DNA of 46,227 nt. Source: Bacteroidota bacterium. GTDB taxonomy: Bacteria > Bacteroidota > Ignavibacteria > Kryptoniales > JAKASW01. Position 1 is the first letter of the stretch, and every line of letters begins with the position of its first letter. The stretch spans positions 1 to 46,227 of the forward strand of contig JAKAGT010000032.1 in the NCBI GenBank assembly GCA_021825585.1, given 5' to 3'. The notes beneath the pieces were generated by a model. It was given only the letters and a program-made list of their open reading frames with translations. It was not told where the DNA came from and ran no database searches. The translations under genes and the position numbers were made by a program. Below, in pieces: positions 6,179-29,443 of the stretch.

Positions 6179-7715
6179 ACGATTCTCCGTTTCTTCTTTT
6201 TGTGTCGTCAGAATTTGCAACTATCCGCTCGTATAAGTCCTGACCGAAACTCGTCTCCAGCGGTTCCGCCTCTTCCAGCTTGAAGGTCCGCGTGCCATCC
6301 TCGAGCCTTTGGGCACGCAGAAAGAGCGTGTTCTCCCTCGCCGCTTCATAGAAAGTTCCGGCAAAGGAGTACAGGTGGGTAACGAAAAAGACCTTGTTTC
6401 GGCCTTCCAGCAGTGCTGTGACTATCTGGCGGGCAATCTCAGAACCTTCCCTCTCGTTTGTTGCAGCAAAAGACTCGTTGAAAAGGAGGAGGGAGTCGGG
6501 TGTAACATGGTCTGCGATGCGGCTCATCCGGCTCAGCTCTTCGTCAAATTTTCCGCTTTCCATTGCAGTGTCCTCCTCTCGTTTGTAATGAGTAAAGACC
6601 GCACTGCATAGATTTGCGGTAAAGGAGTCTGCCGAGACAAACATCCCCGCCTGCATCATCAGCTGTGCAAGTCCTATGCTGCGAAGAAAGGTTGATTTCC
6701 CTCCCTGGTTCGCACCTGTAATTATCACGAGGTTCTTCCCGTCCGCACTAATACCATTACCGACGACTTTCGCCGATGTTGTCAATGCAAGGCAAGTATC
6801 ATACAATCCAGAAAAGGAATGCCGGCGCTCGCGTACAGGAGATGGGATTGGGAAGCAAACATGGTTTTCCTTCTCATTAAGCCGCTCATACAAATTGAGG
6901 CAACCAAGGTAGAAGCCGAGCTCAGTCCGAAGCATGTTGAAAAAGGTTTGTATATGATCCGCCGATTGGGCAAGTGCATTTGCCACCAGGTTAATCCCGC
7001 GATCTCTCAAGTTGCCAAGCGCTTCCGCCCCTCTTTCATCCCGCGGATCGAGATGAAAAGTGTATGGCTCTGATTTTCGTGAAACCGCCAGCCTAACGCG
7101 TTTTAACCAGCCCAATCTGAGATCCGGGGGTTTTCTAAGTATGTAGTTCGTCCCTTTGTTGCCGGCCCCCAGTTTTGCACTTACAAGCACATCGTGATCA
7201 GACCTCAGGTACCTAAGGTGCGATTCAATCTCTTCGAAGTACTCATCCGTGAGTTCCTGCCTCAGCATGGCGACCAGTCTCGAAAAGCCCGATGACCGGA
7301 ATTCATGTTCGTGTTCATCGGCTATATTCCTAAGCAGCTTCAGCTTTGAGACAAATATCTGCAGCGACTCGATGGCTCCATAGAGTACCGACCCGGGCGA
7401 TCGATGTGAGAAGAAAGCCCAGAACGACTTCCTCTTCTCTTCAATTGCATCGACCGCGACTTGATAAGCCTCTCTGAGAACAGAGGGATTACGGAGACAG
7501 TCTCTGAGGATTTCCTGACGATACAGTATCGTGTCCAAATCCGTCGAGCCGGACAGAACCACTTTCCTTGCAATATCCAGAACGAACTTGTCCTGACCTG
7601 CCATCGCCTCGAACAGGGTGTTGAGTGACAAATCCTGCGTGAGGGCATCTTCGTTCCATGGTAACGCCTGGTCAGTTTCGAAGTCACGGTCCTTGTAAAG
7701 CAGCAGCGCTTTCAT
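6168..7715 (-). CDS. MutS-like ATPase lacking mismatch-binding domains (copy 2)
   Basis: The 515-aa protein has a C-terminal MutS-type ABC ATPase: Walker [10 protein letters not shown] (residues 334-342), Walker B-like LLLFNES (409-415) with Asn in place of the usual Asp, and VTH switch histidine (445-447). The N-terminal half is helical and resembles the MutS core/lever region. The mismatch-binding domain I with its Phe-x-Glu motif is not present, nor is a Smr endonuclease domain. It overlaps the preceding paralogue by ATGA and the following eno by 11 nt. MutS-like genes are known downstream of crcB-motif RNAs, which fits this operon. It could form a heterodimer with its neighbour. Substrate unknown. 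Confidence 0.85.
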
Positions 7716-13802: not shown

Positions 13803-14522
13803 CTATTGCGCTGCCGACCGCAGCATAGCTTCCTCCTTGAAGGTTGCATTCACATAATTCCCAACCGACACAGATATTATCGCCGCAAGCACGACATCCG
13901 AAAACCAATGCTGATCGTGATAGATTCGCCCAAGACAGGTAAGCACTGCGAGCAAATACCAGAACGCTTTCCATATTTTGTTACTGGAAAAGCCAGCGAG
14001 GATCATCGAATATGCCACAGCTACACCGACATCGCCCGAGGGAAGCGACAGATGAGCATTGGGACCGAATGTGAATCCGACGAACGCGAAGCTGCCGTGT
14101 CCGGTGTACGGTCTCCATCTGCCGAAGATCGACTTAAGGACTGTGACGATGATACCGGATATCGCAAACGCCTCAAAAATCATCCACCCCGCTATCCGTA
14201 ATTTCTCGTGCTGGAGAACCAGGCCAAACACGTAGAGGATAACAAAGGTATCAAGTGTCAGATGAATCTTGCCATACCAATGTGCGAATCCAAAGACCTC
14301 GTCAAGCAAGGGAGTATGAATTTCCGCAAAGAACATCCGTATGTGCGGGTCGAGAAAGAAGAGCCCGGGAAAGACGATTACTCCCACGGCCACATATTCC
14401 CAGGTCGTCCTTTTCCATCCGAATGGAAGTCTGTAAAACGAAATGAGATCATTCCATAAATGCTGAAAGTCACCCGTTATCGTTCGCAATCGCCCTGAAG
14501 ATTTCATGTCATTCATAGTCAT
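13803..14522 (-). CDS. PAP2-family membrane phosphatase with altered PSGH motif
   Basis: The 239-aa protein has about six TM helices and PAP2 motifs: K130-x6-R-P (KSIFGRWRP), PSG (161-163), and R199-x5-H205-x3-D209 (RIYHDQHWFSD). The usual PSGH histidine is Asp164 (codon GAT). I start at 14522, one base after the stop of the preceding gene; the frame extends 22 codons inside that gene without a ribosome site. Family members dephosphorylate lipid phosphates or undecaprenyl pyrophosphate at the membrane. The substituted residue is the conserved motif-2 histidine proposed as the general acid, so activity may be altered. Confidence 0.85.
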   Translation of the reverse strand: MTMNDMKSSGRLRTITGDFQHLWNDLISFYRLPFGWKRTTWEYVAVGVIVFPGLFFLDPHIRMFFAEIHTPLLDEVFGFAHWYGKIHLTLDTFVILYVFGLVLQHEKLRIAGWMIFEAFAISGIIVTVLKSIFGRWRPYTGHGSFAFVGFTFGPNAHLSLPSGDVGVAVAYSMILAGFSSNKIWKAFWYLLAVLTCLGRIYHDQHWFSDVVLAAIISVSVGNYVNATFKEEAMLRSAAQ

Positions 14523-14523
14523 A

Positions 14524-16401
14524 TCAAAGCAGGAAGGCAAGCACAAACACAATGACGATATATAGGATGTACAATGAGATTTTTCCATTCATAATGGTCC
14601 GGCCGACAAGGTAGCTCAGCCTCCTTACAAACTTGTCCAGAATCTCGTAAAGGTACTCAGCGAGATCTTTGTTGGTGACTTCCGCCGTGTAGCCCATCCT
14701 CGTCTCCTTCGTGCGGTAAACCTTGCGGAGAATGTATTCCAAAATGAATGAGTATGCCGGTACTGTGAAGTACTCGTCTTCGGTGAGCGTCTGGCCTCCG
14801 TTCCAGGCCTGCACGCGCCTGGCTTTCTTTGCACTCCGGTGGTAAAGGAGGTAAGGTACGATAAACAGGAATCCGACCACCACAACAAACATTGTAGGCG
14901 AGACAACTCCGAATATCGGATTACTCGAAAGAATGAGTAACGGATCCGGTACGGCAAGCAACCCACCCAGGAAATTTGAGTAGCCGAGGATCTTGATCAA
15001 GAAAGGCGAAAATATTCCGCCCAAAAGAATCAACGCGGTAAGGAACACCTCCGAAGACCTTATCTTGAGCGACGGGAACCGGTGGGCCTTTTTACCGTGG
15101 TCGGGACCGAGGGCCGTGTACCCGATCAGTTTTATCATGGAAAACGCGGCGAGGCCAATCGCGAGCGCGATGAGAATTCCGGCGAAAGCCGTCAATAGCC
15201 GTTGAGCATTGCCCTGAAACTTATATGACTGAAAGAGAGCTTCGAGGATCATCCATTCTCCCACGAACCCGATGGTCGGAGGAAACGCGCTGAATGAAAG
15301 TCCCGAGGTCAGGATGCCGAATGCAGGAATTCCCCCAACGTTGCTCCATATTCCACGGACGTTGTCTATCGATTCTTCCTGAAGCGACTCTTTGGCGTGC
15401 CCAACCGACATGAAAAGTAGCGACTTTGCCGCGGTATGTGAGAATGCGACAAACAGAGCCGCGAGAAAGGCAAATCGCGAGAGTACCATCATAGGCTGTG
15501 ACCCCGACGCTCCTGCCATCGCGCTTAGGCCGATGGCAGTGAGTATTATACCGTTGTTCTCCACCGTAGAATAGGCCGGAAGCTTTTTAAGACTTCTCTC
15601 GGCAGCGGCTTGCATCGCACCCCAGAAAGCCGAAACCGCTCCGAAAGCCATGAGACCTATTCCCCACCAGTCCGAATACCCAGCGATTGATAAAGCTCGG
15701 ACAATGCCGTAGACTCCCATGAGAGTCAACGGGGCACTCAGGAGGGCGGCAGTGTTAGAGGGAGCCTTCGAATAGGAGCCCGTGATCCAAGTGTGAAATG
15801 GAAAAATATCCATTTTTATAATGAATCCCAGAGTTACCATCACAAGAAAAAACGGAGTCGCTGTCACACCCGCCTTTATCGAGAACGTGCCGCTGGATAG
15901 GAAGAGAGCCGCAAACCCGATGATGAGAGCCATGGCCGATGCTTCGCCAAATGCCAGGAATCGAAAAGCATCTTCGTAGGAATCCTTGCGTTCCAGGATT
16001 TGAAGAAACAAGCCAATTGTCATTACTTCCCAGCCGATCATAAAATTTACTGAATCCTGGGCAGCCATCACGAGAGTCATCCCGAAGAGTGACAGGTTGA
16101 ACCACGCAGCCATCTTCCTGCTAAAAAGTTTTCCGAAATCGATGGAGTAGAACGATAGTGCGATGAAAGAAATGGAGGCGACCACAAGGAAAATACCGGA
16201 AGTTGCGTCGAGGCCAACGCTGATGGAGAGTCCAGGTATGATGGAGCAGCCCGGCGACGAGAAGCTGTTTATCATGGCGGATATGCCCGCGACGAGGGAC
16301 GAAATGGAAGCCGCGAAGGCTGTCCAGTAGCTCAGGTACTTTCTTGATGATGCGGCAACCCCGATCAAGTACAAGGCAAGAGAAAGATAAAGAAATATCA
16401 T
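14524..16401 (-). CDS. Ehr-like complex antiporter-type subunit (HyfB/HycC-like)
   Basis: The 625-aa, roughly 16-TM protein belongs to the NuoL/M/N-MrpA proton-translocating family (PF00361 type). Conserved patches include NFMIGWEVMTIGLFL, the PFHTWITGSYSKAPSNTAAL segment, AYSTVENNGIIL, SHTAAKSLLFMSVGHA and SAFPPTIGFVGEW, with a C-terminal extension as in HyfB. It begins 1-2 nt after the small-subunit gene. It is one of two antiporter-like subunits in the complex and is expected to move H+ or Na+. Some canonical residues in the PLHxWLPxAHPxAP region are changed (Gly/Ser for Pro/His). Confidence 0.88.
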   Translation of the reverse strand: MIFLYLSLALYLIGVAASSRKYLSYWTAFAASISSLVAGISAMINSFSSPGCSIIPGLSISVGLDATSGIFLVVASISFIALSFYSIDFGKLFSRKMAAWFNLSLFGMTLVMAAQDSVNFMIGWEVMTIGLFLQILERKDSYEDAFRFLAFGEASAMALIIGFAALFLSSGTFSIKAGVTATPFFLVMVTLGFIIKMDIFPFHTWITGSYSKAPSNTAALLSAPLTLMGVYGIVRALSIAGYSDWWGIGLMAFGAVSAFWGAMQAAAERSLKKLPAYSTVENNGIILTAIGLSAMAGASGSQPMMVLSRFAFLAALFVAFSHTAAKSLLFMSVGHAKESLQEESIDNVRGIWSNVGGIPAFGILTSGLSFSAFPPTIGFVGEWMILEALFQSYKFQGNAQRLLTAFAGILIALAIGLAAFSMIKLIGYTALGPDHGKKAHRFPSLKIRSSEVFLTALILLGGIFSPFLIKILGYSNFLGGLLAVPDPLLILSSNPIFGVVSPTMFVVVVGFLFIVPYLLYHRSAKKARRVQAWNGGQTLTEDEYFTVPAYSFILEYILRKVYRTKETRMGYTAEVTNKDLAEYLYEILDKFVRRLSYLVGRTIMNGKISLYILYIVIVFVLAFLL

Positions 16402-16402
16402 C

Positions 16403-16894
16403 TTAGTTCACCTTCCCCATCAGATTTAGAAGGACGGCGATGATGTCTTTCGGCTCACGGTAGTTTGTGATACGGGCTGCAACATTTGTAAGCCCAAGAC
16501 TGGCGATATCAACTCCCACTTCCCTTCCGATAAACCCGTTCTCTCCTTCGGACTCTATTGACACAATTGAATAGGGACCGGGCATTTGATTTGCCGTCTC
16601 GAGTAAGACGGGGACCATCTTTTCAATTGGTCTGCCGAGAACCAGGAGAACATCGGCGTGCCGCGGTACGTCGGCGAAGAATATTCCGAATCTATGAATG
16701 TTGTACTGCGGTGCCTGGAGAGCCCTGATGTCGAAGTTCAGATCATTTGCATTGCCGACATCGATCGGATAGACGTGAAGGGATTTTCTGAAAATACGGG
16801 ATGCCGATGGGACGTCCAGGTCCTTCGAATAACCTGTCCGTTCGGTAAGTCTTCTTGTTAATCCCCAAATGGGCCACCACTTCGGCGACTTCAT
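16403..16894 (-). CDS. Ehr-like complex small subunit (NuoB/HycG-like) without FeS cysteines
   Basis: The 163-aa protein aligns along its length with HycG/NuoB: RIFRKSLHVYPIDVG, IRALQAPQYNIHRFGIFFAD, PRHADVLLVLGRP and EPKDIIAVLLNLM. It contains no cysteine at all. The CxxC segment (usually GSCNGCEIEI) reads GNANDLNFDI, and the two later cluster cysteines are also replaced, so the N2-type [4Fe-4S] cluster cannot be bound. This is a hallmark of energy-converting-hydrogenase-related (Ehr) complexes. It is separated from the large-subunit gene by a 196-bp gap holding an AT-rich repeat. Confidence 0.85.
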   Translation of the reverse strand: MKSPKWWPIWGLTRRLTERTGYSKDLDVPSASRIFRKSLHVYPIDVGNANDLNFDIRALQAPQYNIHRFGIFFADVPRHADVLLVLGRPIEKMVPVLLETANQMPGPYSIVSIESEGENGFIGREVGVDIASLGLTNVAARITNYREPKDIIAVLLNLMGKVN

Positions 16895-16937
16895 GATGTC
16901 ACTCGATTATGAAGCGGCCTGCAACTCATTATGGAAG

Positions 16938-17092
16938 AAATTCTAAACACTAAATCCGAAATCCTAAACAAACTCAAAACTGCAAAACTCAGGCCTACGA
17001 AAATCACTATCTATCTTCCTTTCACGGTTTGTTGAAATTGAATCTTGACCATTCGTATTTGTTTAGAGTTTAGAACTTAGGATTTCGAATTT
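16938..17092. repeat. AT-rich intergenic repeat, copy A
   Basis: Contains AAATCCGAAATCCTAAACAA near 16952 and ATTCGTATTTGTTTAGAGTT near 17051, which form an imperfect inverted repeat. The same two blocks in the same order occur at 21355-21512. The repeat ends at the TAA stop of the large-subunit gene, so it inserted in or right next to the junction between large- and small-subunit genes of one complex. Confidence 0.7.
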
Positions 17093-18344
17093 ACCTTGCT
17101 GCATCTGCGAAATATGCTCCGAAAGATTCGACTGCGAATGGAAAATCGGTGAAAATGTTTCCAACGAGGGATTCACCTATGGCTTTGAATCCAAATATTG
17201 AAGGTGTGGCTGCATAAACAGAGGATATCTTCCCGTTCTGCAGCTCGACATAATATGCCAGGAGGCCGCTCGGCGATTCACAATAGCCGATTCCTGAACC
17301 GGAGCCGTCAGGCACGGATTTATTATCGGTGGCCGGTGCACTTCCGGAATCTCTTAGTTCCTTTAACTCTCCGGACATATCCGATATGATCTCCACAGAC
17401 TCGAACACTTCTTCCGCCCTGACTTCCATTCGCGCCAGTGAATCTCCCATCTGAGATGTGGCGCACCTGAGACCTTCATAATCCTGGTCCTGGAGTCTGA
17501 AATCCTCCCTCACTCCTGTGGCTCTGAGCGTCGGACCTGTAACTCCAATTTTCTCAGCCTTCTCTGAATCGAGTTTTGCAGTATCGTGCAAACGATCCAT
17601 GAAGTTTTCGCTTTCAAGTGCGCGTTCGTAGAGATAATCAAATCGGTCGGACAGGCTCCCAAGTCGGCGGGAGAGATGAATCAGGGCTTCATCGTTGAAA
17701 GGTTTTGCTGTACCTGAGATTCCGTTGAATCCCCTGAGGAACCTCGACCCGAAGAAGTCATTGTTAAGACGGAGAAGGTCTTCGTAAATCGCCTGAAGGT
17801 GACTCGTCATGACTTTTTGCGCCGCGGCGGATGCCAGCTGCGAGATGGCATAAATGTGGTTATAAATTCTCTCCAACTCTAGCGCAATTATGCGAACCTT
17901 CCTGAGCTGCGAAGGAACTTCTATTGCAAGAGCCGACTCGATTGCCCTTGACATTGCGAGCGAATGAGAGAAAGCGAAATTACCACAGACGCTCTCAGCG
18001 ACGTTCAAGGCATCTTCGACGCCGAGGCCGATGGCTGAACTTTCGAGACCGCGGTGTTTGTAACTCCAGTCGATGTTTACACAAAGTATTCTTTCGCCGT
18101 ATGTGTAAAGATGATACGCGCCAGCCTCCATAACACCACCGGTTACGGGTCCATATCTAAAATCGAAGACGCCGTCACCAAAGACCTCCTGCCCTGTTAT
18201 CCCTTTGTCGCGATCGGCCACCGACTTCAGTTGCTTCGCAATCCATTCTTCCCCGCTTGCTTCCGACGTCGACCAAACCTTCTTACCGTCATGGAGCAGG
18301 AGTTTATCCTGATCACATCCCGCGATACCTACTGCCCGAATCAT
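17091..18344 (-). CDS. Ehr-like complex large subunit (HycE/NuoD-like) without NiFe ligands
   Basis: The 417-aa protein matches the HycE/HyfG/NuoD family: FRYGPVTGGVMEAGAYHLYT, YKHRGLE, LNVAESVCGNFAFSHSLAMS, LELERIYNHIYAISQLA and GVTGPTLRATGVREDFR. The first NiFe motif, usually RxCGxC, is SVCGNF, so the second Cys is lost. The C-terminal DPCxxC motif aligns with GAYFAD, so both Cys are lost. Three of four Ni ligands are missing, which excludes hydrogenase activity. A low-complexity insertion (GSAPATDNKSVPDGSGSG) sits near residue 335. It overlaps the preceding gene by ATGA. Its function is presumably structural or quinone-linked, as proposed for Ehr complexes. Confidence 0.87.
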   Translation of the reverse strand: MIRAVGIAGCDQDKLLLHDGKKVWSTSEASGEEWIAKQLKSVADRDKGITGQEVFGDGVFDFRYGPVTGGVMEAGAYHLYTYGERILCVNIDWSYKHRGLESSAIGLGVEDALNVAESVCGNFAFSHSLAMSRAIESALAIEVPSQLRKVRIIALELERIYNHIYAISQLASAAAQKVMTSHLQAIYEDLLRLNNDFFGSRFLRGFNGISGTAKPFNDEALIHLSRRLGSLSDRFDYLYERALESENFMDRLHDTAKLDSEKAEKIGVTGPTLRATGVREDFRLQDQDYEGLRCATSQMGDSLARMEVRAEEVFESVEIISDMSGELKELRDSGSAPATDNKSVPDGSGSGIGYCESPSGLLAYYVELQNGKISSVYAATPSIFGFKAIGESLVGNIFTDFPFAVESFGAYFADAAR

Positions 18345-19711
18345 CGTACAACCACTCCCTTCAGGAAGTAGTAGACAACCGGAGTAAGGAAGACCATACT
18401 GAATGCAATGATCAAGCTGACGATGGGGACCGTGGCGTTATCGTCCATCTTTCCGGACTGTTCAGCCGGTTCGGAGAACACCATCCTGATTACCCGGTAG
18501 TTCACCCCGATGAATGCCACTACGAGGAACGAGGCAATGAATAACGTGAACCAGACGCCATAGACTTGCAACATACGAGTCATTATTAACATCTCGCCGA
18601 AAAAAGTCCCGAAAGGCGGAGCTCCCGTCACGGCCAAACCGGCGAAGAACAATGAATAACCAGTAAGTGGCATTGTCCTGGAAACACCTTTCACATCCCT
18701 TATGGCATTCGTACGATAGCTGGCGAGGACGTTACCCGTCAAAAAGAAGGCGGCTGATTTCGCGAAGGCGTGAGTCAGTATGATTATCACGCTTCCGATG
18801 AACGCGTTCCCTCCAAGCGCGATGCCGATGAGAGCGACGCCCATGTTTTCGATTGAAGAGTACGCAAACATGCGCTTGTACTGTCTCTGCGAGAAAGTCA
18901 TGAGCGAGGCCACAATAACACTAAGTGAGCCCAGGACAACGGCGAAGTTCCTGACGCTTTGCATCGGGACGATCTGGACGAACCTCACGATAGTATATAG
19001 GGCGACCGGGAGAAGAATAGCGGAGAACATCGCGCTTATGGGTGCCGGAGCACGGCCGTGGGCGTCGGGAAGCCAGGTGTGCATCGGGAAGATTCCGCCC
19101 TTCGTCCCGTAACCTATGATCCCGAGAAGGGCGCCGACAGAGACAATTTTTGTTGCCTGCGGGGCCTGGAGAAGTGCGTTAAGTGACAAAGTGTGGAAGC
19201 CGCCGTAGATGAAGATTGTAGCAAGGAGGGAGATGGTAAGGCCCGTTGAGACAATAATAATGTATCTCCAGGTGGCTTCTACCGCGAGCTCGTTATTGTC
19301 TGTCGCGATCAGGAGCGCGCTGGTGACGGTGGTGGCCTCCACTCCGACCCACAGCAGCCCGACGTTGTCCACCATGACGGTGAAGAACATGGAGACGACG
19401 AACAAATTCAAAAGAAGGAAGTAAAGATTGGCCTGAAAGAGTTTGTTCTCAATGTGTTCAAGATATTGTATAGAAAAAATGACGGTGAGAACGTAGACCG
19501 CAGAAATCATTATCTGCATGAGCTTGGAGAATCCGTCCACATAGAGTCCAAACGAAGCTGCGTTCGGCAGGAAAGCAATAAGTATCGATGATGCCAGAGA
19601 GGCAAATGAAGCTATGATTGAGACATCTTCTTCAAACTTGGTTCTCGGCACGAGACAGAGTAGTCCGCCAATACCGCTGAGGACGACCGGCAAATAATAA
19701 ATCCAAATCAT
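18341..19711 (-). CDS. Ehr-like complex antiporter-type subunit (HyfF-like)
   Basis: The 456-aa, about 13-TM member of the NuoL/M/N family has GLLWVGVEATTVTSALLIA, GYGTKGGIFPMHTWLPDAHGRAP with the conserved Lys, YSSIENMGVALIG, THAFAKSAAFFLTGN and GAPPFGTFFGE. These retain the Glu, Lys and His residues of the proton path. It shares ATGA overlap with the large subunit and starts 3 nt after HyfE-like. With the HyfB-like subunit it gives the complex two probable ion channels. Confidence 0.9.
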   Translation of the reverse strand: MIWIYYLPVVLSGIGGLLCLVPRTKFEEDVSIIASFASLASSILIAFLPNAASFGLYVDGFSKLMQIMISAVYVLTVIFSIQYLEHIENKLFQANLYFLLLNLFVVSMFFTVMVDNVGLLWVGVEATTVTSALLIATDNNELAVEATWRYIIIVSTGLTISLLATIFIYGGFHTLSLNALLQAPQATKIVSVGALLGIIGYGTKGGIFPMHTWLPDAHGRAPAPISAMFSAILLPVALYTIVRFVQIVPMQSVRNFAVVLGSLSVIVASLMTFSQRQYKRMFAYSSIENMGVALIGIALGGNAFIGSVIIILTHAFAKSAAFFLTGNVLASYRTNAIRDVKGVSRTMPLTGYSLFFAGLAVTGAPPFGTFFGEMLIMTRMLQVYGVWFTLFIASFLVVAFIGVNYRVIRMVFSEPAEQSGKMDDNATVPIVSLIIAFSMVFLTPVVYYFLKGVVVR

Positions 19712-19714
19712 CGA

Positions 19715-20377
19715 TTAACCTCTTAATTCCGTGAAGTCCTCACGTGGAGTCAGATCGTCCACGTCGGCGTTCTGGGCAGGTTCCTCTTTGAGCCTGACAA
19801 TGACTCCGGAGATCATTATGGTACCTATTACATCGAGCACGACCCCGGCTTCCACCACGAATGGAAGTTCCGGAAAGAGAAAGCCAAAAAGGTAAAGGGC
19901 GTTTTCCATCACGAGATAGCCGATGAGCTGGGTGGTTGGCGTGCGTCTTGAAATTATGAGAAAGGCACCCTGAAGGAAGAGGGCGATCGGTATTGCACCC
20001 AGTGCCGAATGAACGTAGTCATACATCGTCCATGAATAGATCACGTATCCGAATACCGCGAACAAGAGTGAGAGGATAATAGTCGACGCGATACCGAGCA
20101 CCGGCTTGATTTCTCTCGCCCTCCAGCGGTCGCGTCGAAGCATTCTCGAGAGAAAGCTCGGGATGAACCATGCACGTATTAGCGCGGTGAACCCGCCGAG
20201 TGCAATCAGGTATGGCTCATGACCGACATAGCCGGCAGCAAGCAGGAAGGCGGCCAGAACGTAAGAGCCGACTGAGAAAGTTTTGATTACGCTGGATACA
20301 TAAGTCTGCCACTGCATGAAGGTGACGAGAGCAATTTGAACAAAACCGACAAGAACAAAGATGCTGTTAAGTGTCAT
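19715..20377 (-). CDS. Ehr-like complex membrane subunit (HyfE-like)
   Basis: The 220-aa protein has six or seven TM helices and HyfE features: ALGAIPIALFLQGAFLIISR, QLIGYLVMENALYLFG and PFVVEAGVVLDVIGTIMISG, including the NuoK-like Glu residues in the last helices. It overlaps the HyfC-like gene by ATGA. HyfE combines a NuoK-like core with extra helices in hydrogenase-4-type complexes. Confidence 0.88.
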   Translation of the reverse strand: MTLNSIFVLVGFVQIALVTFMQWQTYVSSVIKTFSVGSYVLAAFLLAAGYVGHEPYLIALGGFTALIRAWFIPSFLSRMLRRDRWRAREIKPVLGIASTIILSLLFAVFGYVIYSWTMYDYVHSALGAIPIALFLQGAFLIISRRTPTTQLIGYLVMENALYLFGFLFPELPFVVEAGVVLDVIGTIMISGVIVRLKEEPAQNADVDDLTPREDFTELRG

Positions 20378-21333
20378 CGAAATCCCCCGCCTGTCCGGGT
20401 TGTGAAGAATACCAGGGCCGCAAGGAATGCGAATACAAACGTGACGGACACAAAATCAAATATCTTGAACAGACGGTATTTGGAAACCGACTCGTTTAGG
20501 AGCGCAAACACGATGAGGAGCGCCAGTATTTTCACAAAATTTATTACCGGGTAAACGAGGAGTACGGTCATTGAAGGCGTCATCGGAACGAGGAATGGAA
20601 CGGCGAGGACGTTCATGAAAACATTCATAAGGAGGAAATGCTTCATGTACCCTCCCCATTTATAGAGGGCCAGTTCCGTGCCGGAATATTCCATCTCCAT
20701 TGACTGGGCTATCATCCCCAATTCGCCCATGGTATGAGACTCTATGGGCAACTTGCCTGTCTCAACGATTAAGACCATGAAGAACGCTATCGTAACGAAC
20801 CAGTGCACGAGTGAGCCGTACCAGGTGCCGGAAGTCTGAAGGACATTGTTTATGACATACGGGTTGTTCGTCTGGGATATGACCCCAAGCATTATGAAAA
20901 TGAGGAGCATTATAGGCTCCGAGAGGGCCCCGACGCTGGCGGCCCTCGATGTTCCCAAATGCGAATAGTTGTTTCTGCTGTCGATAGCAGCGAGCTTCTT
21001 CACTGTGGCCGCAGCTCCGAATACGAGGCCGCCGCCAATGAAGTCAACGACCGGTCCGAAAGTCAGCGGAAAGGCAGTTAAGATGGGGAGGACCAGGGTG
21101 AGGAGAAGATAGAACGCGAACGTTATGTAAGGCGCGACCATGAAGAAGGGCGAAGCAACAGTTGGCACCAGGCTCTCCTTGCGGAAGAGCTTCGCGAGAT
21201 CATAATACGGCTGGAAAACAGACGGACCCTTTTTCGACTCGAGAACTTCCTCGATCTTCACGAGTATCCCAGCGGCCAGCGGCGCCAGCAGTAGAACGTA
21301 CAGAAGTTGTAGTAAGCTTAATAGTAGAAGCAT
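20374..21333 (-). CDS. Ehr-like complex membrane-arm subunit (HyfC/NuoH-like)
   Basis: The 319-aa, about 8-TM protein is typical of HyfC/HycD: KKGPSVFQPYYDLAKLFRKE, VETGKLPIESHTMGELGMIA, and MEMEYSGTELALYKWGGYMK. NuoH-like subunits link the hydrophilic module to the membrane arm. It is the first gene of the Ehr-like block, in the order HyfC, HyfE, HyfF, large, small, HyfB. No HyfA/HyfH/NuoI ferredoxin-like gene is present in the block. It lies 313 bp downstream of DUF190. Confidence 0.9.
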   Translation of the reverse strand: MLLLLSLLQLLYVLLLAPLAAGILVKIEEVLESKKGPSVFQPYYDLAKLFRKESLVPTVASPFFMVAPYITFAFYLLLTLVLPILTAFPLTFGPVVDFIGGGLVFGAAATVKKLAAIDSRNNYSHLGTSRAASVGALSEPIMLLIFIMLGVISQTNNPYVINNVLQTSGTWYGSLVHWFVTIAFFMVLIVETGKLPIESHTMGELGMIAQSMEMEYSGTELALYKWGGYMKHFLLMNVFMNVLAVPFLVPMTPSMTVLLVYPVINFVKILALLIVFALLNESVSKYRLFKIFDFVSVTFVFAFLAALVFFTTRTGGGFR

Positions 21334-21646
21334 AAACAGAACTAACTCACTCAGTAAAATCCTAAATACGAAACTCTAAATCCTAAACAAATTCAAAACA
21401 CACAAACTCAAAATACCCAAAACTCTTTGTCTCCAATCCAAGAGAGCACAGATTCTTTTGAACATTCGTATTTGTTTAGAGTTTAGCATTTTGAATTTAG
21501 AGTTTCTAAATCCAAGGTAGGCGCCATCAGCGATAGCGTGTTTCCGAAAGGATTTTCGGAAAGGAGGGCGTCATCTCCTAAATGACACGATAATTTAGTG
21601 AAGCGGCCCTGAAGAATCAAATGCTATCGCAAGGCCGCGTCACGTG
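21334..21646. other. Gap in the fluoride run, repeat and hairpins only
   Basis: Between the crcB-linked DUF190 and the HyfC-like gene. It holds AT-rich repeat copy B (21355-21512), a clean stem TTTCCGAAA-GGAT-TTTCGGAAA (21540-21561) and a GC-rich palindromic patch around 21600-21640. No gene is visible. The hairpin lacks a T-tract, so read-through from crcB into the Ehr block is possible, but an internal promoter here cannot be excluded. Confidence 0.5.
21355..21512. repeat. AT-rich intergenic repeat, copy B
   Basis: Shares CTCTAAATCCTAAACAAA (about 21373) and ATTCGTATTTGTTTAGAGTT (about 21463) with copy A, in the same order and spacing, again forming an imperfect inverted repeat. Both copies lie at gene borders of the Ehr-like block. 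Confidence 0.7.
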
Positions 21647-22000
21647 TCAGGGCGTCTTTCCCGGGGTATAGTGGATCACGGTTGCCTTTTCCTCTGTGAC
21701 CATTCCTCCGCAACCGGCCTTCTCGAAGAGTTCGGTAACTATTGGGAGGAAAGAATCGATTTTCTCTTCAGTGTCCACTATCTCGATGACCAGTGGGAGA
21801 TCCTCGCTGAGTTCGAGAAGCTTTGCGGTATGGATCCTGCTTGTTGCCCCATAGCTCTCCACGCCGCGAAGGACTGTCGCGCCGGCAAGTCCGAATTCTT
21901 TCGCCCGTTCCACGAATACCTGATAGAGAGGTTTCCGGTTGAGGTGGTCCTCTTCGCCGATAAAGATCCGGAGAAGTTTACCCGTGCCTTCAAGTTTCAT
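21647..22000 (-). CDS. DUF190 family protein (crcB-linked copy)
   Basis: A 117-aa DUF190 (COG1993, PII-like fold) protein: GKLLRIFIGEEDH, KEFGLAGATVLRGVESYG, SEDLPLVIEIVDTEEK and GCGGMVTEEKATV. The start is set by the ribosome site GGAGG 5 nt before ATGAAACTTG at 22000; an open frame to 22045 runs into crcB and places that site inside the gene. The crcB-DUF190 pairing is common in bacteria, which supports a shared role in fluoride or ion homeostasis. It is second after riboswitch 1. Confidence 0.92.
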   Translation of the reverse strand: MKLEGTGKLLRIFIGEEDHLNRKPLYQVFVERAKEFGLAGATVLRGVESYGATSRIHTAKLLELSEDLPLVIEIVDTEEKIDSFLPIVTELFEKAGCGGMVTEEKATVIHYTPGKTP

Positions 22001-22011
22001 TTTATCCTCCA

Positions 22012-22386
22012 TTAGATTATTCTCCCTGCCAGCATTCCGACCCATGTAGCGGTGAGTCCGACGACGATCGAAACGCCAACGTTCAACAACCCAATCGCGA
22101 TGGCACCATCCTTGAGCAGCCCAACGGTCTCGAAGCTGAAAGTGGAAAACGTGGTGAATCCACCAAGCACTCCAACCGCAAAGAAGATTCGGAAAGAGGG
22201 GCTGATGAGAAACCTGTCCTCTGCCATCGTAAGAAACAGACCTATGACGAAACAGCCTATTACGTTCACTGCGAGAGTACCGTATGGGAAGTTCGTTCCA
22301 AGGACTTTATAAACCCAGCCGGAGAGCAGATATCGAAAAAAAGCTCCGATGCCGCCACCGATAATAACGAGTATATTTCTAAACAT
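22012..22386 (-). CDS. crcB: CrcB/Fluc fluoride channel
   Basis: The 124-aa protein has four TM helices. Family signatures are GGGIGAFFRYLLSGWVY, FPYGTLAVNVIGCFVIGLF and GVLGGFTTFSTFSFETVGLL (the GxTTFSTF phenylalanine-box motif). Fluc channels are dual-topology dimers that let fluoride leave the cell. It sits directly behind riboswitch 1 and its terminator, confirming the fluoride reading. The ribosome site is weak (GAAAGAAG). Confidence 0.97.
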   Translation of the reverse strand: MFRNILVIIGGGIGAFFRYLLSGWVYKVLGTNFPYGTLAVNVIGCFVIGLFLTMAEDRFLISPSFRIFFAVGVLGGFTTFSTFSFETVGLLKDGAIAIGLLNVGVSIVVGLTATWVGMLAGRII

Positions 22387-22420: not shown

Positions 22421-22475
22421 AAAAATTCCTGTCGCGCACAGTTGGTCCATAATTAAAAAGACCGTGCGGACAGGA
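22421..22475 (-). terminator. Riboswitch 1 expression-platform terminator
   Basis: On the minus strand TCCTGTCCGCACGGT (22475-22461) pairs with ACTGTGCGCGACAGGA (22442-22427), followed by ATTTTTG. The 5' arm starts inside the aptamer's ACTCCT 3' strand, so terminator and ligand-bound aptamer exclude each other: fluoride binding should allow read-through into crcB. Confidence 0.85.
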
Positions 22476-22526
22476 GTCATCATTTGCGTCACGTACGCAA
22501 AGCTTATTCGGCGAACTCCATCGCCT
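22470..22526 (-). promoter_or_regulatory. Fluoride (crcB-motif) riboswitch 1
   Basis: Minus-strand RNA starts with GGCGATGGAGTTCGCC (22525-22510), then a GC stem-loop (TTTGCGTACGTGACGCAAA), and closes with TGATGACTCCTG. This matches the fluoride riboswitch consensus. It lies about 85 nt upstream of crcB with an intrinsic terminator between. No strong promoter is obvious upstream. Confidence 0.93.
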
Positions 22527-22626
22527 ATGTCAATTTGTGCCGTCGCCGTTTACAACGATCTGGCACACCAACAATTTAATTAACGCCGCCATGTAAGCAA
22601 ACTAAAAAAGAATTCAACGGGCCTCT

Positions 22627-23019
22627 CTATTTATCCAAAATTCTCTCTACAATCAAAGAAGCAACCGCAGAGTTGAACTTCCCTCTTTTCTTCAAACCGG
22701 AAGCCACACTCGCGTCGTCTTCACCGAGGATCGACGCGATTGCACGTATAAAAGCACGCGCCATGATGGGATCAAGATCTGCGCGGTTCGCAAAAGCATT
22801 GGCGATTGCCGCCGCACCGGCTTTCGATTTTCGCATCGCGAGGATTTCCGCGGCACGAATCGCAGTTTGGGGCTCGAAGTGCATAAGAGCCTTGATCAGT
22901 TTCTCTTCATAACTCAAATCACTGAAGACTGTAAGGTCACTGCCACATGAAGGACAGACGGCGTCTTCCTGAAGGACTTCGCGCCAACATTCTGTGCAGA
23001 ACAGCTTTACTTCAGACAT
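22627..23019 (-). CDS. Zinc-ribbon plus helical-repeat protein
   Basis: The 130-aa protein begins with a zinc ribbon (C8-x2-C11 ... C22-x2-C25: FCTECWREVLQEDAVCPSCG). It is followed by helical residues 35-130 of HEAT-like character (AIRAAEILAMRKSKAGAAAI, ANRADLDPIMARAFIRAIAS). Function unknown. It is the last gene of the run behind riboswitch 2 and ends about 100 bp before riboswitch 1. A palindromic element separates it from the gene upstream. Confidence 0.7.
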   Translation of the reverse strand: MSEVKLFCTECWREVLQEDAVCPSCGSDLTVFSDLSYEEKLIKALMHFEPQTAIRAAEILAMRKSKAGAAAIANAFANRADLDPIMARAFIRAIASILGEDDASVASGLKKRGKFNSAVASLIVERILDK

Positions 23020-23032
23020 CTCGATTGAGTCG

Positions 23033-23096
23033 TGAACTCACTATGGAGTGGATCGCCACTCCCGATCCCGCTGGCGAGTGATCGGGATCGCGATGA
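23033..23096. repeat. Intergenic palindromic element
   Basis: Contains CGATCCCG...TGATCGGGATCG followed by CGATGACGG, plus a second stem GGATCGCCACTCC...GGCGAGTG. The CGGGAT-plus-second-stem layout resembles other double-hairpin elements in this window. It lies within the riboswitch 2 gene run and has no T-tract. Confidence 0.45.
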
Positions 23097-23137
23097 CGGA
23101 TTCTGTAGAGAGGGGTTGAACCATAGGTGGACTCCCA

Positions 23138-23554
23138 TTAATGCGAATCCTTCAACTCGTGCAGGGCCTTTTGTACGTAACTCTTTGCCACCTCTACGTC
23201 GTCCAGCATTTTGTCGGCAATGGCGAGCTGCTCGTATGGATCGTACGATACCTCGTTCCAATCAAAATAACCTTCGAGGAATTTCGAGCCGAAATCGTGA
23301 TTGGCGATCTTCACATTCTCGAAAGGATACAGTATCTCCATCTTTTCGCTCTTCAATACACGTTCAAAATTGTCGACGAACTCCAGCAAATCGCGGGCGG
23401 CTCTCTCGGGATCCTCAACAAAGACGAGAAGAAGAGTTATGAGTGTGTCCAGCCGCTTCGTGTCAGCGCGCGAAGTGCAAACCTTGCGTAGAGTGTCGAC
23501 CGCAAATGTGAGCTCATCACGAGCGCGTTTCATAGAGTCTGCGTTCCCCGTCAT
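23138..23554 (-). CDS. Hypothetical helical protein, 138 aa
   Basis: Not recognised. It is almost entirely predicted helical and acidic (KRARDELTFAVDTLRKVCTS; DPERAARDLLEFVDNFERVL), with no signal peptide or TM segment. Its start overlaps the DUF6062-like gene stop (ATGA), so it is coupled within the riboswitch 2 run. A partner for the Cys-rich proteins is plausible but unsupported. Confidence 0.65.
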   Translation of the reverse strand: MTGNADSMKRARDELTFAVDTLRKVCTSRADTKRLDTLITLLLVFVEDPERAARDLLEFVDNFERVLKSEKMEILYPFENVKIANHDFGSKFLEGYFDWNEVSYDPYEQLAIADKMLDDVEVAKSYVQKALHELKDSH

Positions 23555-24300
23555 AACCTCATCTGTCCCGAAAAGAAGTTCACGACATCAAGATAGCTGT
23601 CGAGCTCGTCGCGTGTGTAGTCGTGATCGCTCTGATAATCGTGCTTCTTTATGAAATTCGAAAGATCAACCTTCATTCTGTTCATCTTCTCAAGCGTAAC
23701 GTCGAGGACACGTGCGCTTGTCTTCCCCGCCCAAATCGGATCGGCAGCTTCTTGCACGACCATTTGAGTATGCCTGAAGCAAATGACGGTCCTGGATCTC
23801 CTGTAAGCCTCGATGAACTCGCCATCATCGGAAAAATAGACCAGACCGTGCAGCGCTATATTTTCACTTTCCTTCAGGAAGGCACATACGAAGCATTCAC
23901 CTGCGTCGACGGCACCGGAGGGTGGTTTCCTCTTCCGTTTCGTCGTCACTTCTTTTGATTCTCTGACACGCTTAGCCTGTTTCTCAAGCAATTGGAGATG
24001 CTCATCCATTACAGTTTCAAACATCGTGGCAAGATGTAGTCCGTCGCTCTTCAATGTCAGCTCGGTTGCTAATGCGAGTTTCGCGTGCCGGGTACAGAAG
24101 CCATGCTGCTGGTGCAGTTTCTTCCTCACACCGGGATCGAGGACATATTCATAGAGCATCCCTTCCAAGTAGTGCTTTTCTGTCCTTTCAATTTCAGTGC
24201 AAACAGGGCAGCCCGTTCCGCGCAGTGCTTCTTCGAGGCGAATCCAGGTTATTCCCCGCTTCGCGCGTGTCATCTCATCTTCGATAAAAGGCTCCGACAT
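23551..24300 (-). CDS. DUF6062-like Cys/His-rich protein A
   Basis: The 249-aa cytosolic protein carries two metal-site-like modules: GCPVC (about residue 30) with HGFCTRH (about 66-72), and ECFVC (about 134) with VICFRH (about 172-177). The CPxC ... C-x2-H layout is that of DUF6062-type proteins and suggests zinc binding. A basic linker (KRVRESKEVTTKRKRKPPSG) joins the halves. It abuts the next gene upstream without a gap. Function unknown; placement behind a fluoride riboswitch is the main clue. Confidence 0.7.
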   Translation of the reverse strand: MSEPFIEDEMTRAKRGITWIRLEEALRGTGCPVCTEIERTEKHYLEGMLYEYVLDPGVRKKLHQQHGFCTRHAKLALATELTLKSDGLHLATMFETVMDEHLQLLEKQAKRVRESKEVTTKRKRKPPSGAVDAGECFVCAFLKESENIALHGLVYFSDDGEFIEAYRRSRTVICFRHTQMVVQEAADPIWAGKTSARVLDVTLEKMNRMKVDLSNFIKKHDYQSDHDYTRDELDSYLDVVNFFSGQMRL

Positions 24301-24906
24301 CTATTTCCTTCCTGCTAATTTCTCGACGGTCCTCCACAGTGAACTTCTTGCTTCACCAGGGGCCTGGTAATAGTTCTCCGATTCAAGGAGCTTGAGCTGG
24401 TCGGACAGCATTTCCAACGATTGTGCATATGCTTCCACTATTCTCTGTTTGTTCTCAGCAAAAGTGTCGGTGAGTATCTTTTTCAGATGATCAAGACAGA
24501 CAAAATCTCCGGCTGAATTTTCGAACGGTACATCCGCTATCTTCCGTACCTCTTCCCTATCGACTGACTCAAGGTACTCGCAGACTGGACATTTCCGCTC
24601 GTACTCGCGGAAGATACCGTTGATATCGTTCGTACCATCCTCACCGAGGCTTTTCCTTATCAAATATCTGAGCAATTTTGAGGAAATCCCCGAAGAGGTG
24701 ATCCGGTTGAACATCCTCAGGTGTTTGCCGCATATTGCATACAGTCCGTTTGTCTCGAGATAATTCTCGTCCCGCTTTCCCACTTCAAACTGCAACTGTG
24801 CCAGCGTATCGAACTGCACATTCCAGATATGCTCACAAATCGGGCAGCCCTCTGAAACCTGGGTCGCTTCATCAGCATTATTTCCACGGATCGTCGTACT
24901 CGTCAC
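24301..24906 (-). CDS. DUF6062-like Cys/His-rich protein B
   Basis: The 201-aa protein repeats the module of its neighbour: GCPICEHIW with AICGKHLRMF, and KCPVCEYLES with FVCLDHLKKI. The start is a GTG at 24906 that overlaps the C2H2-type gene by 29 nt. No ATG follows soon enough to keep the first CPxC, so GTG is preferred though its ribosome site is weak. It is likely a zinc-binding partner or paralogue of protein A. Confidence 0.65.
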   Translation of the reverse strand: MTSTTIRGNNADEATQVSEGCPICEHIWNVQFDTLAQLQFEVGKRDENYLETNGLYAICGKHLRMFNRITSSGISSKLLRYLIRKSLGEDGTNDINGIFREYERKCPVCEYLESVDREEVRKIADVPFENSAGDFVCLDHLKKILTDTFAENKQRIVEAYAQSLEMLSDQLKLLESENYYQAPGEARSSLWRTVEKLAGRK

Positions 24907-25174
24907 GTTTTATGTAATCCTTTTTAAGGCTGTCAATAATGTCCTCGATGTAGATCGCCTTTATCAAAAGGTTCTCGTTAAGTTTTGGAGCTTCGCCCGA
25001 CGGTGTGGCAACGCGATGAGCATCTATCTTCGCGTCGAGGTGTCTGTCAAGTTCCTCCTTTTCCAGAAACAACTTGTTGCACGCTCTGCACCTGTATTGG
25101 ACGCCGGAGAGTCGTTCGACCGCGAACGGGACGCCCTTCCTCTTTCTGAACTTAACTTTCAACGCCGGGACCAT
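24878..25174 (-). CDS. Small protein with C2H2-type zinc finger
   Basis: The 98-aa protein has a single finger YRCRACNKLFLEKEELDRHL with a second His near IDAHR (residues 27-53). A basic N-terminus (KVKFRKRKG) and a charged helical tail flank it. It is the first gene behind riboswitch 2, about 20 nt after its terminator. It may bind nucleic acid or act as a structural zinc protein; no target is inferable. Confidence 0.7.
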   Translation of the reverse strand: MVPALKVKFRKRKGVPFAVERLSGVQYRCRACNKLFLEKEELDRHLDAKIDAHRVATPSGEAPKLNENLLIKAIYIEDIIDSLKKDYIKRDEYDDPWK

Positions 25175-25194
25175 GGTGTGGCTCCTTCGGTTAA

Positions 25195-25232
25195 TTACAA
25201 AAAGAAACTGCTTCCGACATCGTCAGGAGCAG
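25195..25232 (-). terminator. Riboswitch 2 expression-platform terminator
   Basis: CTGCTCCTGAC pairs with GTCGGAAGCAG around a GAT loop (minus strand 25232-25208; ten pairs, one mismatch), followed by TTTCTTTTTG. The 5' arm overlaps the aptamer 3' strand (ACTCCTGC), as for the other two switches. Confidence 0.85.
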
Positions 25233-25280
25233 GAGTCATCATCATGCTTAGCATGATATCTCGGGCGAACTCCATCGCCT
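25228..25280 (-). promoter_or_regulatory. Fluoride (crcB-motif) riboswitch 2
   Basis: Minus-strand GGCGATGGAGTTCGCC (25279-25264), a stem-loop ATCATGCTAAGCATGAT, then GATGACTCCTG. The core is identical to riboswitch 1. It lies only about 36 nt after the dynamin-like gene stop, so transcripts from riboswitch 3 would meet a second fluoride gate here. Confidence 0.93.
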
Positions 25281-25315
25281 TCAGGCTAAACTTTATGATG
25301 AGGCAGAACCGGGGT

Positions 25316-27132: not shown

Positions 27133-27164
27133 GAAAAACTCCTACTCTTGGTTGAGTAGGAGTT
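27133..27164 (-). terminator. Riboswitch 3 expression-platform terminator
   Basis: AACTCCTACTC (27164-27154) pairs perfectly with GAGTAGGAGTT (27147-27137) around a six-base loop, followed by TTTTTCGTTTT into the ATG. The 5' arm is the aptamer's own ACTCCTAC strand. The 3' arm contains the AGGAG ribosome site. Confidence 0.93.
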
Positions 27165-27222
27165 ATCAATCCCTTGCATTTTCGCACATTCGGGATGGTT
27201 TCGAGGCGAACTCCATCACCTG
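27156..27222 (-). promoter_or_regulatory. Fluoride (crcB-motif) riboswitch 3
   Basis: Minus-strand GGTGATGGAGTTCGCC (27220-27205) followed by TCGAAACC, the most consensus-like of the three. An internal stem and GATAACTCCTAC follow. It is directly downstream of a sigma70-type promoter and upstream of the dynamin-like gene. Confidence 0.95.
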
Positions 27223-27229
27223 CCTTCAT

Positions 27230-27324: not shown

Positions 27325-27763
27325 TCAACCACAAATGAGTTTGTCGGCGGTAATTGATTTGAAGAACTCCGCCGACCACAGGTCCAGAGCTGAATGATCA
27401 GTTATGTAAGGGAACACATCTTGTTTTGCCTGACCATAATCGATAACCCCGAATCTCTTGTCGAGCAACTCGTGGAGATCCTTCTCAGTGAGTGTCTCCC
27501 CCTTCTTCCAATGACCGGTCTGCACCATCCTGGACTGCAGGTGCTTAAGGTCGGCGGGGATTGAATAGGCAAGGTACCAAACGTAATCGTACAAGTCCCT
27601 TCCCTTCATTCGGCCGCTTCCCCATTTCCTGCATAATATCGCATGGAGCTTTCCCGCGAATAGTGAAGGCTGGGAAAAGAGTCTTATGGTGTATGGTATC
27701 GGCATCAGTTGATGCTTGAGTTCGTACGTCGCCCCCGCCGGAGGGTCAACGTCAACTTCCAGC
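27325..27763 (-). pseudogene. AbiEii-type nucleotidyltransferase toxin, C-terminal fragment
   Basis: The fragment starts at LEVDVDPPAG and runs through PSLFAGKLHAILCRKWGSGR and MKGRDLYDYVWYLAY to the stop, matching the C-terminal half of the AbiEii/AbiGii nucleotidyltransferase toxin family. The N-terminal catalytic part is missing exactly where the IS terminal repeat begins (27764), so the IS removed or displaced it. No AbiEi antitoxin is seen. The open frame continues into the IS but that part is not toxin sequence. Confidence 0.75.
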
Positions 27764-27787
27764 TTAACCCAAGTTCGACGGTAGTGG

Positions 27788-27811
27788 CGCAGAAAAAATA
27801 TTTTTTCTGCG
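27788..27811. repeat. Perfect 24-bp palindrome inside IS left end
   Basis: CGCAGAAAAAAT is followed directly by its reverse complement ATTTTTTCTGCG. A U-rich hairpin in either direction could insulate the transposase from outside transcription, as subterminal hairpins do in some IS elements. Confidence 0.7.
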
Positions 27812-28905
27812 GATTCAGTTTGGACTGGGGGATTGGGGTTCAAAAGTCAATGTAGTGCCGACCTTGTTTATTGCAACGTGGTACAGGGATGTGTTAACTT
27901 TGTACCATGTTCCTGCGACGGAAGTGCAGACACAAAGATGGCAAGGCACACTTTTATTGGTCACTGGTTGAGACTTACAGGACGAGTTCGGGTCCACGGC
28001 AGCGCACGGTTGCATACCTTGGAGACATGGATGAAGCAGGACGACTTGGTGTCAAGGATGCTGCCGAAGGTGACAGAGGACAGCAAGGGAATATCTTCTC
28101 TGATAGTGAGCCGGAATGGGTGGAAGTTGATGTCAAACGGGTTAGAACAGAACGATGTCGTCGGTTTGGAGACGCATGGATCGCACTGGAAGTAATGAGG
28201 AAGCTTGGGCTGCCTGAGCTGTTTGAGAGACTGATCCCCAAGACACATGAGAAGATCAGGTGGTCAACACTTGCAGAGGTTTTGATTGTGTCACGGTTTT
28301 GTGAACCAACGAGCGAACTATTCATAGCGGAACAGTTCTATCGACAAAGCGCACTGGTGGATTTGTTCGGGATCAGCGAGGGGGATATATATGACAACAG
28401 GCTCTATCGGGCGCTGGACAAACTGGTAGAGCAGAAGGATAAGATCCAGGAGCATTTGAAGAACCGCTTAGGGGTGTTGTTTGATCTGAAGTATGACATT
28501 CTTTTGTATGACGTGACTTCTACATACTTCGAGGGAGAAGCAGCGGCCAACCCAAAAGCTGCGAGAGGATATTCAAGGGACAGCCGACCTGACTGTAAAC
28601 AGGTTTGCATAGGACTTGTTGTGACAAAAGAAGGGTTTCCATTTGGTTATGAGATTTTCGAAGGGAACAAGCATGACTCTCCGAATGGATGCCTTCGGCA
28701 AAAGACGGTAGATACGATAGTAGAAAAGATGGAGTCGATGTACGGCAAATCGGATCGCATCTGGATTATGGATCGAGGAATGATAAGCCCGGACAATCTT
28801 GAGTTGTTGAGCAGCGAAGGGCGCAGATACATCATCGGGACCCCAAAGGCACAACTAAGGAGATTCGAGAAAGAGCTTCTATCCGGAGATTGGCAGAAGG
28901 TTCGT

Positions 28906-28951
28906 GTCCCGTCAGAATTATTTATGTGTCGGGATGCCGCAAGGCGGCAAC
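28906..28951 (+). repeat. Double-hairpin insertion A in transposase (46 bp)
   Basis: Begins GTCCCGTCAGAATTATT, has stem CCCG...CGGG, then TGCCGC-AAG-GCGGCA. Removing it restores KVR-GVEVKLC as in intact family members. It aligns with insertion B. Confidence 0.8.
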
Positions 28952-29443
28952 GGAGTTGAAGTGAAGCTCTGCCCATCACCTGAGGGAACCACCGAAGTGT
29001 TTATTCTCTGCCGTAGCACAGACCGGCAGAAGAAGGAAGAAGCTATCCACGACCGTTTTGTGACAAGAATAGAGGAAGGTCTTAAGAGATTTCAGAAGAG
29101 TTGCACCGATGGACGGGTCAAGAAGGCAAGCATTGTGGAACGCCGGATCGGCCGCCTGCTTGAGCGCAATCAGAGAGCGGCGTCTCTATTTGACATTGAG
29201 GTCAAGGAAGTCGATGGCGCGGTGAAGATAACATGGACAGTGAAAAACAATCTAAGCGATTGGGCTCGCATAAGCGAAGGGTGCTATCTCTTAAGAAGTA
29301 ATGTTTCCGATTGGGAACCGGAAGACCTTTGGACAGCTTATATCCAATTGACAAAGGCAGAAGAGGCATTTCGACTCAACAAGCATGACTTAGAGTTGCG
29401 GCCAGTGTGGCATCAACTTGAGCATCGCGTTAACGCACATATC

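Follow-up and report, generated by a model that had tools for sequence, protein, structure and literature searches.

Four fluoride riboswitches and a five-gene block

The window analyzed here, a 46,227-nucleotide (nt) stretch of a Bacteroidota genome (assembly GCA_021825585.1, contig JAKAGT010000032.1), carries on its minus strand four fluoride riboswitches (RF01734), each heading its own transcription unit within ~6 kb (Table 1). The second precedes a block of five genes encoding a finger protein, two DUF6062-like proteins, a helical protein and a zinc-ribbon/HEAT-like protein, and the first precedes a gene for a dynamin-like GTPase. An earlier note, made from the sequence alone, had proposed that the block is a fluoride-gated set of metal-module proteins. 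A gene-neighborhood survey bears out the regulatory half of that proposal: genes of the block's protein families lie behind fluoride switches in several taxonomic families within the class, as do DUF6062 and HEAT genes in another phylum; metal binding by these proteins is predicted.

Table 1. Features of the fluoride locus and its surroundings (window positions unless another locus is named; aa, amino acids)
Feature	Position	Strand	Evidence
Switch 1, dynamin-like gene	27150..27229	-	RF01734 41.5 bits
Dynamin-like GTPase, 603 aa	25316..27127	-	Dynamin_N 105.1 bits vs cut-off 27
Switch 2, five-gene block	25223..25288	-	RF01734 36.9 bits, E 9.7e-7; above gathering score
Putative terminator overlapping the block aptamer 3′ strand (CTGCTCCTGACGATGTCGGAAGCAG + TTTCTTTTT)	25199..25232	-	Hairpin ~-12.5 kcal/mol, then T-rich run
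Gene 1, C2H2-like finger protein, 98 aa	24878..25174	-	Open reading frame; weak zf-C2H2 match, below Pfam cut-off
Gene 2, DUF6062-like, two CxxC...CxxH modules, 201 aa, GTG start	24301..24906	-	Open reading frame
Gene 3, DUF6062 protein, 249 aa	23551..24300	-	PF19538 91.2 bits vs cut-off 27
Gene 4, helical protein, 138 aa, no recognized family	23138..23554	-	Open reading frame
Gene 5, zinc ribbon + HEAT-like protein, 130 aa	22627..23019	-	Open reading frame; homologues match HEAT_2
Switch 3, crcB-DUF190	22464..22534	-	RF01734 39.7 bits
crcB fluoride channel	22012..22386	-	PF02537 103 bits; TIGR00494 108.5 bits vs cut-off 80.45
DUF190 protein	21647..22045	-	PF02641 121 bits
Switch 4 (variant), formate-hydrogenlyase-like operon	21511..21587	-	RF01734 32.5 bits, slightly below cut-off
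Formate-hydrogenlyase/complex-I-like membrane operon	14524..21333	-	NADHdh, Proton_antipo_M, Complex1_49kDa and NiFeSe_Hases matches
PAP2 phosphatase (approximate start)	13803..14522	-	PF01569 63 bits; 3′ of the formate-hydrogenlyase-like operon
Recurrent ~135-aa protein	L126 7847-8242; L129 5839-6246; L092 11692-12111; L090 16844-17284; L125 3274-3690		

In a covariance-model search (gathering score for RF01734, 34 bits), the block switch passed the threshold, and all five genes lie co-directionally downstream of it, as the earlier note had it. Alignment of 21 switches showed that it has the conserved aptamer core GAUG...GCC, the pseudoknot GGAGU/ACUCC and the 3′ UGAUGACUCCU, and orthologous switches occupy the same position on contig C82 of the same bin (38.3 bits) and in a related metagenome-assembled genome (MAG; locus L014, 36.9 bits). 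The putative terminator overlapping its aptamer has a stronger counterpart in the C82 copy (-19.6 kcal/mol), the dynamin switch has an 11-bp terminator stem (27164-27137) that overlaps its aptamer 3′ strand, and in most switch copies examined a terminator would compete with that strand. Such competition is described for this riboswitch class as raising expression when the ligand is bound (PMC2864571).

The five genes were said to be linked by overlaps, which holds for genes 1 and 2 (29 nt) and genes 3 and 4 (4 nt), whereas genes 2 and 3 abut and gene 5 follows a 118-nt gap. Across nine aligned homologues of gene 1, C29, C32 and H45 are invariant but the usual fourth ligand (H53 in the window) is not; with the two cysteines and two histidines not all conserved and a score below the Pfam cut-off, the protein fails C2H2 membership, and by its alignment "C2H2" is a description of it, not an assignment. 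For the two proteins described as DUF6062-like, gene 3 is a true PF19538 member, with C31, C34, C69 and H72 and C136, C139, C174 and H177 invariant in 15 homologues. The gene 2 protein has no significant Pfam match and does not itself reach the PF19538 cut-off, but its homologues in L090 and L093 do (48.4 and 43.9 bits), and C21, C24, C59 and H62 and C106, C109, C137 and H140 are invariant in an alignment with divergent homologues; judged by these relatives, it is a divergent sister of DUF6062. The zinc-ribbon/HEAT label of gene 5 stands, given the invariant C8, C11, C22 and C25 and the HEAT_2 matches of its relatives. When DUF6062, its sister and the zinc ribbon are each aligned with divergent homologues, few positions are invariant, and these include the candidate metal ligands. 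Gene 4 has no significant Pfam match; it is predicted to be all-helical (predicted local distance difference test, pLDDT, 70), and a structure search with its model returned no fold match at E <= 0.001. A sequence search of the PDB found no relative of DUF6062 or of the helical protein and only generic matches for the finger and HEAT proteins. The five proteins gave no match to a transporter family or to a PADLOC defence model.

Association of the block families with fluoride switches

To survey the class, we searched 341 genomes for DUF6062 and then searched for RF01734 in, and read, the loci of the matching genomes, counting a DUF6062 locus as linked when it lay on the same strand within ~5 kb downstream of a switch. 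DUF6062 was matched in 14 of the 341 genomes (a weak, interrupted match in G526 was dropped), and 16 of its 18 testable loci have a fluoride switch upstream, compared with 0.04 expected under a simple chance model; for one of these loci (G556, C3:160020), the switch scores 27 bits, below the cut-off. Counted once per genus, linkage is seen in 7/8. The helical gene, present in 7/341 genomes, lies in a fluoride locus at all eight testable places, and the finger gene is switch-linked at 12 of its 14 testable loci, including those of three genomes that lack a DUF6062 match (G180, G530 and G586, the last with an interrupted copy). The earlier note would have given up its proposal had the block not been conserved with fluoride switches in relatives; these counts did not refute it. 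A phylum-wide search with gene 2 had recovered this genome only, using a narrow profile built from two close sequences that was later replaced by Pfam and wider profiles.

These counts bear on whether the five genes are bystanders, that is, chance neighbors or a passenger block such as phage defence around the dynamin-like gene. Such an origin would suit the rarity of the block in the phylum, the AbiEii-like gene and transposase directly upstream, and the resemblance of the dynamin-like protein to the PADLOC LeoA/LeoBC models; yet the genes stand behind fluoride switches anew in varied combinations and orders, across several families and another phylum, and the five proteins match no defence model. 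The survey largely refutes this explanation, which we consider highly improbable. Chance neighborhood was rejected on the observed and expected numbers of linked DUF6062 loci, and a LeoABC-type phage-defence reading of the dynamin-like protein was rejected because PADLOC found no defence partners among the five block proteins.

The entire arrangement occurs again on contig C82, where the order of the four switches is the same and the proteins are 66-92% identical. Contamination of the bin is 4%, and C82 is either a duplication or a co-binned relative. A 4.2-kb contig of this bin (C58; L026, G000:C58) carries a third DUF6062-helical-zinc-ribbon/HEAT fragment, almost identical to G254, which suggests that the bin mixes related genomes. 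MAG SKS5.bin54 (L014 and G253 are this one genome, counted once) has the block at 79-91% identity and four switches, G254 has the full block and four switches, and G039 has a shorter version (switch-dynamin-DUF6062-crcB-DUF190-MFS-enolase). Two further observations concern these genomes. In G254, a truncated crcB, preceded by a fluoride switch of its own, forms an in-frame fusion with DUF190 (L024 12254-12670), an apparent internal deletion. Elsewhere in the window's genome, a DUF6062 gene is followed by DUF190, with no detectable fluoride switch (L027 8878-10224).

More distant genomes retain the families but not their order. G074, from another family, has four switches at three loci and homologues of four of the five block genes plus the dynamin-like gene, all behind switches (E-values against a small target set: finger 1e-20, zinc-ribbon/HEAT 5e-21, helical 9e-10, dynamin 5e-86). 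One locus reads PAP2-finger-DUF6062-enolase-dynamin behind its switch, the second phosphoesterase-DUF6062-zinc-ribbon/HEAT, and the third switch-crcB-DUF190 followed by the helical gene with a switch of its own. Further permutations occur in G556, G565, G568, G591 and G180, while G421 and G472 have a minimal operon, switch-DUF6062-crcB-DUF190, to which an MFS gene is added in G454. Outside the phylum, a plasmid search found DUF6062 in Thermomicrobium roseum only, and did not find the finger gene: on the T. roseum megaplasmid, DUF6062 and HEAT-repeat genes (TRD_RS12225, TRD_RS12230) lie ~40 nt 3′ of a fluoride switch. At 29 bits (E 5.7e-4 in that search), this switch falls short of the Rfam cut-off. 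In its pseudoknot, however, GAGGC/GCCUC replaces GGAGU/ACUCC with pairing kept, and its 3′ strand is overlapped by a terminator of -23 kcal/mol; because of the compensated pseudoknot and this terminator, we regard it as real. The families are thus shuffled yet almost always stand behind one riboswitch class, a pattern that is hard to explain other than by a shared function in the fluoride response.

Neighboring enzymes and the dynamin-like GTPase

The recurrent company of the block families comprises crcB, enolase, pyrophosphatases, antiporter-like and MutS-like genes, overlapping the classes known to be controlled by this switch (PMC11139923, PMC2864571). The finger gene directly adjoins enolase in four genomes (G530, G180, G630 and G556) and is one gene off in three (G591, G074 and G568). 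Besides these, G250 has a partial finger-gene match beside enolase (L128 ~7181-7351), probably a relic, and its only fluoride switch lies elsewhere. This proximity raises an alternative, in which the finger protein and its relatives are not general adaptors but dedicated helpers of enolase and other fluoride-inhibited magnesium/phosphate enzymes, to which they would bind so as to keep out or release the fluoride-metal-phosphate complex. Pyrophosphatases, likewise fluoride-sensitive, are found at the same loci, and the G250 relic would fit; however, the window block has no enolase gene, nor do the DUF6062-crcB-DUF190 operons, and we judge this account unlikely.

The same neighborhoods speak to a second alternative, that the CxxC...CxxH proteins buffer or sense a zinc or thiol state upset by fluoride, so that the block would be an indirect response in metal/redox homeostasis. 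Eight invariant Cys/His ligands in each DUF6062 protein and four cysteines in the zinc ribbon speak for this, but the CxxC spacing is equally compatible with structural zinc, and in the operons read neither metal transporters nor zinc regulators recurred; the recurring neighbors there are fluoride-target enzymes and crcB. We think it quite improbable that this is the role of the block.

A further protein of ~135 aa (NH.RSLSVTA...VE.GL.EIE), which no Pfam family matches convincingly, recurs in or beside fluoride loci or adjoining the finger gene; it is possibly another fluoride-response family.

The dynamin-like protein has no obvious transmembrane stretch by hydropathy. Its nearest solved structure is that of Nostoc BDLP (2j68, E 9e-41), with similarity extending past the GTPase domain, and it resembles IniA as well. 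It has the dynamin GTPase domain in common with Nostoc BDLP, the C. jejuni DLP pair and mycobacterial IniA. By contrast with these, its gene sits behind a fluoride riboswitch, and membrane activity is here a prediction. Membrane remodelling or fission has been reported for BDLP and IniA (PMC2862293, PMC6715688), and the bacterial family has roles in membrane remodelling and stress (PMC6715688, PMC8844932). Related dynamin-like genes lie behind fluoride switches in G039, G254, G074, G556 and G180, so the link between the block and this GTPase that the earlier note raised stands at the genomic level only.

Downstream of the block, the variant switch before the formate-hydrogenlyase-like operon is found also on C82 (32.0 bits) and in L014 (34.1 bits), with one such copy at L009 11520-11596; its pseudoknot strands are altered, and of the three copies, which score 32-34 bits, two fall below the standard cut-off. 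Homologues of the PAP2 phosphatase beyond that operon are located in fluoride operons of G074, G591, G556, G565 and G630. At the other end, an AbiEii-like nucleotidyltransferase fragment (27325-27843) and a DDE transposase (27907-28959) lie directly upstream of the fluoride locus.

A proposed intracellular layer of fluoride tolerance

Fluoride resistance as known so far consists mostly of export and overproduction of inhibited enzymes. The window shares with known RF01734 regulons the aptamer class, the overlapping terminators and the company of crcB, formate hydrogenlyase, enolase, pyrophosphatase, MutS-like and antiporter-like genes, but differs in having four switches in ~6 kb on separate transcription units. 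The Pfam entry for DUF6062 assigns no function; gene 3 and its homologues pass its cut-off with both CxxC...CxxH sites invariant, and the fluoride link and the presence of a divergent sister in the same operons are what set the present case apart. Among known systems, the FRM operon of Enterobacter cloacae (PMC5533749) likewise comprises several genes and is associated with fluoride resistance; induction of enolase in this strain is cited in PMC11139923. A full-text literature search found no paper containing DUF6062, although a listing in subscription papers or supplementary tables is possible, and none combining "fluoride riboswitch" and "dynamin". The review PMC11139923 does not mention dynamin, DUF families or zinc, and neither it nor the main text of the founding paper PMC2864571 has DUF6062, finger, zinc-ribbon/HEAT, helical or dynamin-like genes. 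The literature found links none of the block families to fluoride, in line with the earlier note's view that they have no known fluoride role.

We propose that switch 2 acts as a transcription-ON element. At low fluoride, a terminator that uses the aptamer 3′ pseudoknot strand would halt RNA polymerase; with fluoride bound, the pseudoknot would retain this strand and the five genes would be transcribed. The same aptamer class would also control the dynamin-like GTPase, crcB-DUF190 and the formate-hydrogenlyase-like operon. Because crcB is separate and no transporter family was matched, the five proteins are presumably not exporters and would form an intracellular, non-export layer of tolerance. 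DUF6062 and its sister are predicted to be helical proteins, each held together by two CxxC...CxxH zinc sites, the zinc-ribbon/HEAT protein resembles a binding adaptor, and the finger protein, often encoded beside enolase in relatives, and the helical protein may be small partners. In this scheme, the block proteins would most likely protect fluoride-sensitive machinery or help to reassemble it, in the manner of adaptors or chaperones, with the dynamin-like GTPase maintaining the membrane alongside.

Several points weigh against this interpretation. The block-switch terminator in the window is moderate, weaker than in relatives, and is absent from the hits of our terminator scan of the window; two DUF6062 loci (G000:C77 and G479) have no detectable switch; and most of the switch-bearing genomes of the class (a switch was found in 55/279) have no DUF6062, so the module is dispensable. 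The adaptor or chaperone role is drawn from domain type only, and the DUF6062 model (pLDDT 51, from a two-sequence alignment) is too poor for a structural inference of role. Because most switch-bearing genomes do without the module, the block is an accessory rather than a core layer of the fluoride response. Within these bounds, the switch and its conserved placement make regulation of the block by fluoride very likely, and the block is probably a genuine accessory operon of the fluoride-response regulon that likely functions in fluoride tolerance; a specific adaptor or chaperone role for its proteins is less likely than not. Tentatively, we envisage an as yet undescribed, modular fluoride-tolerance system, spread over at least two phyla and distinct from export, in which zinc-stabilised DUF6062 proteins, the zinc-ribbon/HEAT adaptor, the enolase-associated finger protein and the helical partner, together with the dynamin-like GTPase, may keep fluoride-poisoned enzymes or membranes working.

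These results provide a first likely physiological context for DUF6062 and several unnamed small protein families, and make a link between a bacterial dynamin and fluoride testable. Non-export, intracellular fluoride tolerance would also be relevant to organofluorine degradation, where fluoride is freed inside cells.

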